DNA of 40,982 nucleotides from Phycisphaeraceae bacterium. GTDB taxonomy: Bacteria; Planctomycetota; Phycisphaerae; Phycisphaerales; Phycisphaeraceae. Positions within the stretch are counted from its first letter, which is position 1. Each line of letters opens with the position of its first letter. The notes below the pieces were generated by a model. It was not told the DNA's origin and searched no databases. It was given only the letters and a program-made list of their open reading frames with translations. Positions 8,865-12,714 of this stretch are shown here, one piece after another. The stretch lies in the NCBI GenBank assembly GCA_020848195.1, contig JADLAP010000160.1, positions 1-40,982 of the forward strand, given 5' to 3'. Position numbers and translations under genes: made by a program.

Positions 8865-9228
8865 GAGTTGTCGGCTGACGGGCGGGATGAATCCACTCCC
8901 ACGGCCTCCACAAGGGTAGATCGGCCGGGAAGCCAGTGGTTTTGCAGCTTTTTCGGTTGACTGAGCCTCACATGCCGCGTGGCGGCCGACGACCTTGGAA
9001 CATGGTCATATCATGGCACGCGCCACAAAAAAGTCAAATATGTCGCCTGATAAAAACGTGCGAATCGCAAATTGTCATGTTTGTAATTCGTGACATAAAA
9101 GACGTTTAACAGTTTCACGCTCACGCCGCGACATCGTCGCGGATTCCTTGACATCCCGGTTGCTTTCCACCCGCCTGTATCGTCTGGTTAAGCCAGGCAT
9201 CCTGGTTGAAGCTGGGGTGATAGGTGAT
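8865..9228. other. Intergenic region with hairpins upstream of the pseudopilin operon
   Basis: No gene is supported between the small minus-strand gene and the pseudopilin start. The part at 9020-9115 is clearly AT-richer than its surroundings and is the likely promoter area. CCGCGAC/GTCGCGG form a perfect 7-bp stem with a 3-base loop at 9126-9142. Closer to the start, CTGGT(9184-9188)/GCCAG(9192-9196) and AGCCAGG(9191-9197)/CCTGGTT(9201-9207) are two hairpins that share bases and cannot form together. A TTGACA at 9148-9153 has no -10 at a usable distance. A c-di-GMP riboswitch was considered but its conserved core is absent. Confidence 0.35.
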
Positions 9229-9861
9229 ATGGGAAATACAGCTACAACAATCGAACTTACCGCCGGGCGTAGGGCACGGGCCTTGGCGCCAAGCCCCGTC
9301 TCGGCGCCGGTGGCGGCGGAGCGATGCCGCCGCGCCGGCTTTACGCTCATTGAATCCGCGCTGGCCACCGTCATCATCGCCACCGGCGTGCTGTCCATCC
9401 TCGCCGCGCAACAGGCTTACCATCGTAAAAACGACTGGGCACAGCGCACCGCCACGGCCGTGTTGCTGGCCAATGAACTGCGCGAACTGACGTTGACGCT
9501 GCCTCTGCACGATCCGATCAGCGGCGCGGCGCATCTCGGACCCGAAACCGGCGAAAGCGGCATCGCCGACTACGACGACCTCGACGACTTCGCCGGCTCC
9601 GTCGATGCCCAGGGCTGCGGTGCGGGCATCAGCTTCAATCCGCCCATCAACGCCCTGCGCCAGACGGTGGCCAACCTGGTCGGCTGGTCACAGCGCATCA
9701 CCATCGACAATGTCCTTGACGACAACATCAGTTCCACCTTCACGCAGCCGCTGGGTTCCACGCACATGTGGCGCGTCCGCGTGACGGTGATGTATCAGTC
9801 GCCACAGGGTGCCGAGCCACACGTCATCACGGACCTTGTGTGGGTGGTAACTCAACCATGA
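9229..9861 (+). CDS. PilV/GspI-like minor pseudopilin
   Basis: Prepilin-type protein expected to be processed by a prepilin peptidase and inserted in the inner membrane as a minor subunit of a type II secretion or type IV pilus machine. In the 210-residue product the processing site is G37/F38, followed by FTLIE with Glu at +5. A hydrophobic helix LATVIIATGVLSILAA comes next, then a C-terminal globular domain. The 37-residue leader is long and basic. The ATG at 9229 follows a GGTG-type site; an in-frame TTG at 9148 would lengthen the leader further. Its stop overlaps the next start (ATGA). The three-gene order resembles PilV-PilX-PilW. Confidence 0.85.
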   Translation: MGNTATTIELTAGRRARALAPSPVSAPVAAERCRRAGFTLIESALATVIIATGVLSILAAQQAYHRKNDWAQRTATAVLLANELRELTLTLPLHDPISGAAHLGPETGESGIADYDDLDDFAGSVDAQGCGAGISFNPPINALRQTVANLVGWSQRITIDNVLDDNISSTFTQPLGSTHMWRVRVTVMYQSPQGAEPHVITDLVWVVTQP

Positions 9862-12101
9862 CGTCCGCACCACGCGATTCCTGTTTCCATACGAAGCGCC
9901 GCGACTTGTCGCGCGCCTTTGCCCACCGGCGCGGCGTCGTCGCCATCCTCGCCATGATGTTCCTCGTCATTTTCGGATCGCTGGCCGCGGCGATGGCGAT
10001 CATCGCGCAGGGCAACCTCGCCACCGCCGACACGCACCTGAAGGTCAACCGCTCGCTGGCCGCCGCCGAGACGGGACTGCATCTGGTCGCCGCCCGCCTC
10101 GACGCCGTCACAGCCTCGATCAAGACCCGCAGCGGCGTCATTGACGACAGCAACGCGCCGGACCTGTGGCTGCAGGTCCGCGAGAATCTGCTGGCGTCGT
10201 TCGCGCATGAGTCGCACAACCTTCAGGAGCCGCGCATCACGACCGGGGCGCTGTGGATCGGCCCCATCGCCGTAGGCCCCGGAGCGCCAAGGTTCACTGC
10301 TTCACTCCAGCCTCATCCGTTGCCTGGGGAAAACTACAACGCCGCGTACTATCAGCGACCGCCGTACAGCGCGATGAATCCCCCCGTTTCCGCCGGCTGT
10401 CCGCTGGGACCAACGTGGATTCGCCTTCGCGTCACCGCCGCCGATGGATCCGCGATCAACCCCATCACCCGCGGCATCCAGATCGACCTCAAACTCGACA
10501 AGAAAATCCCCTACGCCATTCTCGCCAGGAGCCGCGTGATGATCGGCCGGCACGTCATGGTCCAAGGCCCCATCGGCTCGCGCTTCAACGAAGTCAATCT
10601 TCCCCTCGGCCATCCCATCCAGATGGTCAGCGATTTCTCGGGCCTAAGCTCCCAGCTCGACGACAATCTCGAACTGCTCGCCCAGTCGCTGCACCTGCGC
10701 GACGCCGACGGCGACAACCGCCTCAATCTCGCCAACGCCGCCGAAACCGCGGACCTCGAACATCCCGAACAACTCGACCTCAACCACGACGGCCACATCG
10801 ATGACTACGCCTTCTTCCTCGAACACTACGACGCCAACCGCGACGGCCAGATCAGTGCCACCGAACTGGACGCCACGCATCACGTCGAGGCTGCGCAACT
10901 GCTCAGCCTCATCGACACCATGGGCGATCCTGCCCGACCCGGCTACAACGACGGCGTGATCGACGACCTCGACCGCTACGCCAAAGTCCGCGGCCAGATC
11001 GCGCTCACCGCCGGCTACGACGACTGGAATCAGGGCGCCGCCGAAGGCAACATCCAGAACGCCTACCGAGGCCCCGTGCAGCCGGACTACGCCAAGGCGC
11101 CGCTTACCTTCGACGCTTCCGACCCGGAGATTTACGATTTCATGCCCGCCGATTTCGACATTTCCAGCTTTCGTAATGTCGCCACAGGCAACCTCGACAG
11201 CCAGGCGACTCAGCAGGCGGCGATGAACAATCCCAACGATCCCGCCTCGCCGCAGCCGCTGGGCAATTGCCATTTCGAATCCGTTCCCTACGGCGCAGCC
11301 CATCCGTACGACTACTACAACCGCCCCGTCTATGAAAACATGACATTCACCAATGTGCGCATCCCCAAGGGCTGCAACGCCCTGTTCAGGAACTGCACGT
11401 TCATCGGCGCGACGTTCGTGGAGACCACGACAACCAACACCGATTCCAACTTCAACTACGTCGGCATGGCGCAGGCAGACGGCTCGCTCAAGCATCCGGG
11501 ACTCACGGCCGTGGTCGGCGGAAATACGGTGTCGGATACCAAATCCCTGTCCAACAACCTCCGCTTCGACGGCTGCACGTTTGAAGGGGCCGTCGTCACC
11601 GACGCGCCCCAGGCCTATGCCCATGTCCGCAACAAAATCGCCTTCACCGGCCGCACCCGCTTCAACATCGACCAGTCCATTCATCTGACCGATTCGGAAA
11701 AATCGCTGTACAGACGCAGCACGCTGCTGATGCCGCACTATTCCGTGGAAATGGGCACTTTCGTCGCACCGTCCGATCCCGGTGAAACCGTGCGGCTCAG
11801 CGGAACCATCGTCGCCGGCGTCATCGACATCCGAGGCCAGGTCCACATCGACGGAACCATCCTCACCACCTTCGAACCTGTCAGCGGCCAGAGTCCCGTC
11901 GTCGGCCAGACCAGCCCGCAGTTCAACACCACCCTCGGCTACTTCCCCTCTTCCGACGGCGACCTCGAAGCCGAACTGCCCGGCTCAGGCATGGGCGTCA
12001 TTCAGATCATCTACAACCCCAACCTCGCGTTGCCCGACGGCATCCTCAGCCCCATTCAGCTTTCCCTCGTCACCAGCACCTACTTTGAAGGAGGCATGTG
12101 A
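9858..12101 (+). CDS. PilX-N-domain protein with EF-hand-like repeats
   Basis: Large PilX-like pilus assembly or secretion subunit, 747 residues. A basic N-terminus (HRRGVVAILAMMFLVIFGS) leads into one membrane helix at about 26-50, then an amphipathic helix with NRSLAAAETGLHL typical of PilX. Around 280-370 are calcium-loop motifs: DADGDNRLN, DLNHDGHIDDY, DANRDGQISATEL and a looser DGVIDDLDRY. Around 490-620 are spaced FxxCTFxGA-like strands (NCTFIGATF, GCTFEGAVV) suggesting a beta-helix or pentapeptide-like stack. PilX proteins are usually below 250 residues, so most of this protein is an added exported domain. The start overlaps the PilV-like stop by 4 bp. Probable role: calcium-stabilised tip or substrate-binding component (inference). 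Confidence 0.8.
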   Translation: MTSAPRDSCFHTKRRDLSRAFAHRRGVVAILAMMFLVIFGSLAAAMAIIAQGNLATADTHLKVNRSLAAAETGLHLVAARLDAVTASIKTRSGVIDDSNAPDLWLQVRENLLASFAHESHNLQEPRITTGALWIGPIAVGPGAPRFTASLQPHPLPGENYNAAYYQRPPYSAMNPPVSAGCPLGPTWIRLRVTAADGSAINPITRGIQIDLKLDKKIPYAILARSRVMIGRHVMVQGPIGSRFNEVNLPLGHPIQMVSDFSGLSSQLDDNLELLAQSLHLRDADGDNRLNLANAAETADLEHPEQLDLNHDGHIDDYAFFLEHYDANRDGQISATELDATHHVEAAQLLSLIDTMGDPARPGYNDGVIDDLDRYAKVRGQIALTAGYDDWNQGAAEGNIQNAYRGPVQPDYAKAPLTFDASDPEIYDFMPADFDISSFRNVATGNLDSQATQQAAMNNPNDPASPQPLGNCHFESVPYGAAHPYDYYNRPVYENMTFTNVRIPKGCNALFRNCTFIGATFVETTTTNTDSNFNYVGMAQADGSLKHPGLTAVVGGNTVSDTKSLSNNLRFDGCTFEGAVVTDAPQAYAHVRNKIAFTGRTRFNIDQSIHLTDSEKSLYRRSTLLMPHYSVEMGTFVAPSDPGETVRLSGTIVAGVIDIRGQVHIDGTILTTFEPVSGQSPVVGQTSPQFNTTLGYFPSSDGDLEAELPGSGMGVIQIIYNPNLALPDGILSPIQLSLVTSTYFEGGM
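9890..9915 (+). repeat. Hairpin repeat, copy 1 (in PilX-like gene)
   Basis: A 26-bp sequence beginning TACGAAGCGCCGCGA that matches 12112-12137 with one mismatch (A9904 versus G12126). It contains CGCGAC-TT-GTCGCG, a perfect 6-bp stem with a 2-base loop. It lies in codons 11-20, upstream of the membrane helix. The other copy is read in a different frame, so the match is at DNA level and not conserved protein. Confidence 0.75.
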
Positions 12102-12102
12102 A

Positions 12103-12714
12103 ATGTCTTTGTACGAAGCGCCGCGGCTTGTCGCGCGACCCTGCATATCACGCGGCGTCTCCATCGTCGAAATGCTCCTTGCTCTCGCCATCGCCGCGAT
12201 GGTCCTCACCGCCACCGTCGTCGCGCTGGACGCCAGTTTCAAGGCCTACGCCGACACCGCCGAGCAGACCTCCGTGCAGATCAGCTCCCGCATGGTTTCG
12301 CACCGGTTGCTGACGCTCATCCGCACCAGCACCGCACATGGTCCGCTCGTGCCCGACGCCGCGGCCTCGCCTCCCGTCACGCTCAGCGGCGATCTGATCA
12401 CCAGTTCCCATCTCGAACTCCTCGACCCGCGCGACGACATTCTCCGCATCGAATACCGCGCGGCCGACAAACAACTCTGGCTGATCCGCAATCCCGGCGA
12501 AACCGGACAGGTCGCGCAACCCATGATCGACGATGTCGCCGACTGCGTGTTCCAAGCCAAGAGACGCCGCAACGATCAGGGATTGTGGGTGCTTGAACGC
12601 GGCACGATCGACCTGACGCTGCGGCCCTCGGAGGACAAAACGTTGTCCATCGAGAACGGCCCCGCGCAGCCCGTGCGCATCATCGCCTCCACCATGCCCC
12701 GCAAATTGCAATAA
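12103..12714 (+). CDS. PilW/GspJ-like minor pseudopilin
   Basis: A 203-residue prepilin-like protein, third gene of the pseudopilin operon. The leader is 18 residues ending in SRG. The mature form would start VSIVE with Glu at +5, followed by MLLALAIAAMVLTATVVAL as the membrane and packing helix. The C-terminal part includes the PilW/GspJ pattern of a basic-polar helix and beta strands (DDILRIEYRAADKQLWLIR). GGAGG lies upstream of the ATG at 12103, two bases after the PilX-like stop. Codons 4-12 of the leader are encoded by the second copy of the hairpin repeat. It ends 22 bp from a convergent lipoprotein gene. Confidence 0.85.
   Translation: MSLYEAPRLVARPCISRGVSIVEMLLALAIAAMVLTATVVALDASFKAYADTAEQTSVQISSRMVSHRLLTLIRTSTAHGPLVPDAAASPPVTLSGDLITSSHLELLDPRDDILRIEYRAADKQLWLIRNPGETGQVAQPMIDDVADCVFQAKRRRNDQGLWVLERGTIDLTLRPSEDKTLSIENGPAQPVRIIASTMPRKLQ
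12112..12137 (+). repeat. Hairpin repeat, copy 2 (in PilW-like leader)
   Basis: It differs from 9890-9915 at one of 26 bases. The stem keeps pairing through a G-U pair (CGCGGC-TT-GTCGCG). Here it encodes YEAPRLVAR in the part of the leader removed on processing, whereas copy 1 encodes TKRRDLSR. Same DNA, different frame. Confidence 0.75.

Follow-up and report, generated by a model that had tools for sequence, protein, structure and literature searches.

A REP family of a Phycisphaeraceae planctomycete with two copies in the leader regions of one prepilin operon

A short hairpin repeat found at two neighboring gene junctions of the window (here, the whole analyzed stretch of 40,982 nt, contig JADLAP010000160.1 of the Phycisphaeraceae bacterium assembly GCA_020848195.1; C209 in our numbering) belongs to a REP family that is dispersed in the genome, is located mainly between genes and near their 3' ends, and flanks RAYT-like genes in two related genomes. 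It is very probable that this is a new REP family of a Phycisphaeraceae planctomycete, the copies of which came to lie at gene 3' ends and, in this operon, have been tolerated as leader peptide. The element is of an ordinary kind, a REP family with a RAYT lineage, in an unusual place.

Repeat copies at the junctions of the V-X-W operon

The two copies (Table 1), TACGAAGCGCCGCGACTTGTCGCGCG and TACGAAGCGCCGCGGCTTGTCGCGCG, are identical at 25 of 26 bases and form the only direct 26-mer pair with no more than one mismatch in the window; none of 100 shuffles of dinucleotide type gave such a pair. Copy 1 has the stem CGCGAC/GTCGCG, the loop TT, and the tag GAAG. Copy 2 has the same tag, and its stem contains one G-T wobble. 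Copy 1 follows the stop codon of gene V by 29 nt and copy 2 that of gene X by 11 nt; both have the same orientation and are located beside start codons. Their offsets from ATG 9858 (X) and ATG 12103 (W) are 32 and 9 nt, and the encoded peptides are TKRRDLSR in X (context HTKRRDLSRAF) versus YEAPRLVAR in W (context MSLYEAPRLVAR). An earlier reading made from the letters alone (hereafter, the sequence-only reading) had described this repeat pair and its translation in different frames; both observations were borne out, including the positions and, with the wobble in copy 2, the stems.

Table 1. Repeat copies and genes of the V-X-W operon in the window
Feature	Position	Strand	Remarks
Gene V, prepilin-like ORF	9148..9861	+	Longest ORF starts at TTG 9148; actual start uncertain
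Gene X, 747 aa	9858..12101	+	N-terminal basic leader, then hydrophobic helix
REP copy 1	9890..9915	+	24-position consensus matched with 0 mismatches; within the N-terminus of X, provided that ATG 9858 is its start
Gene W, prepilin, 203 aa	12103..12714	+	Processing site R17/G18-VSIVE
REP copy 2	12112..12137	+	24-position consensus matched with 1 mismatch; within the W prepilin leader

Genes V and W show weak matches with the PF07963 N_methyl family, both below the cut-off (E-values of 0.0023 and 0.007, respectively), and orthologues of V are located upstream of X in related genomes. No Pfam pilin match was found for gene X, the product of which by eye is PilX-like; weak EF-hand-like matches, also below the cut-off, were noted in the middle of this protein (residues 321–337).

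As for the translation of the copies, ATG 9858 of gene X overlaps the stop codon of V (ATGA), as in coupled genes. An alternative start, TTG 9906, is located inside copy 1 and gives the leader MSRAFAHRR before the G; it could be the true start of X, and copy 1 would then be only partly translated. In gene W, there is no ATG, GTG or TTG between copy 2 and the processing G, and ATG 12103 and TTG 12109 are located just upstream; therefore, copy 2 is translated if prepilin W is made.

Orthologues of W were identified in 39 of the 51 family genomes searched, including the genome under study (38 of 50 others). Genes V and X were found beside W in most of the 38 stretches from relatives, and a few short contigs contained no V or no start of X. 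In most cases, similarity with the window proteins starts close to the processing site, at approximately residue 23 of X and residue 17 of W, and some alignments extend further into the leader. The W leaders of relatives, counted from the nearest upstream ATG, consist of 4 to 33 residues and are basic and unconserved (the N-terminus was unaligned in 5 of the 39 W loci). The REP was absent from the X junction in 34 relatives (best match with 9 mismatches of 24) and from the W junction in 38 relatives (8 of 24), so both copies are specific to the window lineage among the genomes sampled. The proposal that prepilin leaders are poorly constrained is strengthened by these data, since the leaders of relatives are unconserved but basic and sometimes contain a different repeat.

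The dispersed family and its RAYT-like genes

The assembly under study comprises 3.77 Mb in 404 contigs and is 84% complete. Throughout the assembly, the 14-base core CGCGACTTGTCGCG was found at 89 places with no more than one mismatch (58 exact), versus 9 places for the reversed control. The stretches around the core places (70 regions and one transposase region) were scanned with a 24-position consensus; 80 copies were detected at three or fewer mismatches, none at four, and seven at five, and five controls gave no match at four or fewer mismatches. The consensus derived from 45 aligned copies was A(C)G(T/A)AGCGCCGCGACTTGTCGCG(T/C)C(C/T)T, in which the part that begins with AG and ends with the last CGCG was fixed by the way the 45 copies were chosen; beyond its ends, little or no similarity was observed. 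With a 6-bp stem, a TT loop, conserved ends and a length of approximately 26–29 bp, the element corresponds to the 20–40 bp palindromes with short loops known as REPs, and its dispersal in many copies is also that of a REP. Close copy pairs were mostly head-to-tail (7) and seldom inverted (1, tail-to-tail), with one palindromic self-match, and not the inverted pairs typical of BIMEs and REPINs; in this, the family differs from most REP families. Among the matches listed for an exact 21-mer, the named genomes were nearly all MAGs of Phycisphaeraceae or other Planctomycetota, and two actinomycetes had single matches.

The placement of the copies was analyzed relative to genes called with a home-made codon-usage gene caller. 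The majority (60 of 80) were intergenic, 14 partly overlapped a gene and 6 were located within called genes. Both neighboring genes were known for 71 copies; 44 of these were at convergent, 24 at unidirectional and 3 at divergent sites, and copies at the unidirectional sites had no strand preference (13 versus 11). Copy-free neighbor pairs of the same loci, which are not a random genome sample, were convergent in 26 of 248 cases. In addition, a gene 3' end was no more than 20 nt away for 50 of 73 copies (two or fewer mismatches), compared with 11.8% of 38,199 intergenic 24-mers. Thus, the copies are mostly extragenic and near gene 3' ends, as is characteristic of REPs.

The sequence-only reading had suggested a REP-like mobile or recombinogenic element and proposed looking for copies throughout the genome, in intergenic spaces and in other prepilin leaders. 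Genome-wide and intergenic copies were found in the numbers given above, and the REP-like nature is supported by the dispersal, the mainly intergenic position and the RAYT-like genes flanked by the family in two relatives. No enrichment in prepilin leaders was found: among 90 N_methyl places compared by eye with the copy list, a single one (gene W) had a copy just upstream, gene X not being recognized by the N_methyl model. Prepilins as targets of the REP were therefore rejected. The genome contains approximately 90 such prepilin-like places in 3.8 Mb, 86 of them above the family cut-off as listed, and most belong to the short-leader GFTLIELLVVISIIA type. A search among the 80 copies of this genome and 111 copies of relatives revealed no further convincing case of an N-terminal copy before a hydrophobic stretch. 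One copy is located at the start of a 606-aa ORF (L062; LSLKRRDLSRLPLLVISLMATM), in the same frame as in X; the TTG start of this ORF is unsure.

Copying of REP units is attributed to RAYTs, Y1/HUH transposases that act on single strands and recognize the unpaired tag next to the hairpin. The assembly under study gave one Pfam match to a Y1 transposase, and a second Y1 relative was detected by protein search; neither gene is flanked by the window REP, and no cognate RAYT was found in this 84%-complete assembly. The gene with the Pfam match (L100; positions 1740–2485, contig C332) is RAYT-like, contains an in-frame TAG and has the palindrome GTTTCCGCGACGCCGCAAGCGGC on both sides. This palindrome represents a second REP-like family of the genome. 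With flanking palindromes of a different family and an in-frame TAG, L100 was rejected as the source of the window REP.

In relatives, 31 Y1 loci were scanned, some of them representing one genome under two handles. Two loci, L396/L408 (Dive100_bin3.48) and L391/L409 (OFTM355), contain a RAYT-like gene flanked by three REPs of the family, a good one on the upstream side and two on the downstream side; a decayed copy is located farther upstream. In the L396 protein, the HUH motif reads MPDHVHLL and the Y motif RYVENNPAKAG; the similarity of the protein with the NCBIfam REP_Tyr_transpos model (E-value of 1.7e-17, 63.7 bits) is below the curated cut-off of 80. Homologues of this protein in three other genomes are 59, 58 and 53% identical to it and have GAAG-tagged palindromes on their flanks. 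The stems are re-paired as CGCGGC/GCCGCG at L410 and as CGCGGT/ACCGCG at L412, and L411 is flanked by several stems, some of them incompletely paired. Such a pattern would be expected of co-evolving REP/RAYT pairs. The suggested search for a RAYT was therefore successful in two relatives, where the cognate gene is flanked by the same REPs, and unsuccessful in the assembly under study. Judging from the distribution of the copies, the REPtron anatomy and the absence at orthologous junctions, the family is probably mobile.

The tags of the copies in this genome were GTAG (28), GAAG (14) and nine others that occurred singly or doubly; in named genomes of relatives, GAAG was found in 105 and GTAG in 3 of 109 copies. 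The canonical GTAG tag therefore holds for the copies of this genome only in part. The unpaired CGTC tag of the CGTC REP super-family was not found, the tag being GTAG or GAAG.

Other repeats in the same leaders

Heptamers of the AAATC-NN type are dispersed in the relatives G008 (123 places versus 0 for the control), G022 (139 versus 0), G005 (220 versus 42) and G051 (83 versus 9), and are not dispersed in the genome under study (3 places) or in G007 (2 places). For period-7 self-similarity, the final 60 nt of the W leader ranked in the top 1% of their own locus at 9 of the 39 loci and in the top 5% at 17; for five other periods, 0–3 of the 39 loci were in the top 1%. In the X leader, the signal was weak (5 of 35 loci in the top 1%, versus 1–4 of 35 for other periods), the remaining loci having no aligned X N-terminus. 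Loci of one genus are non-independent, so the separate events are fewer than the loci counted. According to a stricter count (AATC twice, 7 nt apart, within 120 nt), 4 of 27 leader stretches of W contain heptamers, 2 of the 29 ortholog loci being left out because their prepilin motif was unrecognized; the 30 top-scoring N_methyl genes of G005, G008, G022 and G051 contain none. In G022, heptamers were found in the leaders of both X and W, the same pattern as for the REPs in the window.

Taken together, it seems possible, albeit tentatively, that the V-X-W prepilin leaders of Phycisphaeraceae are a recurrent sink for dispersed repeats, the lineages having built the cleaved leader from the active repeat (here the GAAG/GTAG-tagged REP, which has a RAYT lineage of its own; heptamer arrays in other genera). 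If this is true, the leader peptides would be partly made of selfish DNA.

Several other arrangements were observed in relatives. The X leader region of G010 (L328) contains a run of 12-nt repeats reading RVGQRVGQRVGKRVGKRV, a third kind of repeat at that place. At the W junction of G005 (L314), inverted heptamer arrays are located on either side of the W start codon, which would place this codon within a hairpin loop. In G008 (L343–L380, L324), arrays of the AAATCCG type are often inverted pairs 30–110 bp apart and are located within predicted genes in 19 of 55 cases. Five of the 19 genic arrays are located 5–19 nt behind the start codon, and several are in frame within conserved-looking housekeeping ORFs (by eye, MiaA-, MurA-, TsaD-, RlmN-, RecJ- and PriA-like). 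The 7-nt unit of these arrays encodes the same peptide (KSEIRNP) whatever the frame, and this may be why the heptamers are tolerated in genes.

Origin of the leader copies and comparison with known systems

The position of the window copies can most simply be explained by the placement of the family together with the lack of spacers in the operon. REP copies, presumably produced by a RAYT, settle mostly just behind stop codons; genes V, X and W abut without a spacer, so that a copy behind the stop codon of V or X falls into the leader of the next gene. Type IV prepilin leaders are cleaved off and need little beyond basic residues. The copies may have persisted because such a leader need only be translated, basic and removed before the mature pilin, and one REP frame supplies the residues KRR. 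In addition, both window copies have the GAAG tag; in the X frame, a GTAG tag would give an in-frame TAG, which GAAG avoids. We infer this order of events, and tolerance of the leader copies rather than benefit or regulation.

It is less likely, though worth considering, that the junction copies, also of REP origin, are functional here and were kept because the operon is tuned by their RNA hairpin, which would protect the end of the upstream message or damp translation of the next gene. Each of the two junctions of the operon has a copy, in the orientation and position described above, and effects of REPs on mRNA stability, termination and translation have been reported (PMC6006769). However, single-strand RNA folding of three 27–29 nt stretches was no better than that of shuffles (z of 0.29, −1.51 and 0.73), and the operon is kept in relatives without such a hairpin; we regard this tuning as unlikely. 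Quite improbable is a family of bidirectional transcription terminators spread between convergent genes by selection and not by transposition. The share of copies at convergent sites (44 of 71) and the distance of most copies from a stop codon (20 nt or less) would suit terminators, but the stem is followed by the consensus bases (T/C)C(C/T)T and not by a T-run, the strand preference is lacking at unidirectional sites, and the tag outside the stem is conserved and carried on the flanks of RAYT genes.

The near-perfect dyad of the core with its 58 exact copies might also be taken for the operator site of a regulator. This has very little probability: the copies are at gene 3' ends, with 3 of 71 between divergent genes, the tag outside the dyad is asymmetric, and in relatives RAYT genes are associated with the family. 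The two copies, nearly identical and 2.2 kb from each other, could in principle originate from a single local duplication between the two neighboring genes, the case that the sequence-only reading had set against its own proposal, but this is excluded by dozens of other family copies in the genome and by the end of similarity at the element ends.

Insertion of REPs behind stop codons with their tolerance in the leaders is thus the preferred reading. The operon would clearly exemplify how mobile-type repeats can be taken up into a protein leader that is cleaved off, and the explanation, gene 3' end preference together with abutting genes, is checkable in other operons. With the family, a REP/RAYT lineage from Planctomycetota is added, in which the GAAG tag is unusual and the stem changes can be traced between relatives; this lineage would help test the evolution of RAYT tag recognition. 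The GAAG tag and the idea of the leaders as a sink are the more novel sides of the finding. No description of the family was found in the literature searched, and among the top-ranked literature matches, in which subscription journals are thinly covered, none dealt with REPs of prepilin leaders or with a REP bearing a GAAG tag; the string "gaag" does not occur in the text of PMC6006769 or of PMC3733652.

Among known systems, the family resembles the GTAG REPs (Di Nocera et al. 2013, PMC3733652) in its short stem, 2-nt loop, unpaired 5' tag, 3' tail and dispersal. The placement is also similar: the REPs described there are located near gene 3' ends and between convergent genes, and intragenic copies are recorded, with the caution that those at N-termini may be located before the actual start. 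Planctomycetes are already among the GTAG-REP hosts in that work, according to which the TAG stop codon of a gene often comes from the GTAG tag. Unlike these REPs, the present family has the tag GAAG almost throughout in relatives and in 14 copies of the genome under study (against 28 with GTAG), head-to-tail pairs, and two copies in the prepilin leaders of one operon.

The RAYT-like gene of two relatives, with its HUH and Y motifs and flanking REPs of its own, corresponds to the REPtrons with TnpA-REP (RAYT) of the Y1 HUH superfamily (PMC6006769), for which the canonical tag is GT[AG]G and in-frame REP insertions within RAYT genes are described; unlike in those systems, no REPtron for the window REP was found in the assembly under study. 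Finally, Rickettsia palindromic elements (RPEs, cited in PMC3733652) are likewise palindromic repeats in frame within protein genes. Unlike RPEs, the window REP occurs overwhelmingly outside genes, and those of its copies that are translated are located in leaders; the heptamer elements of G008 are closer to RPEs than the window REP is.
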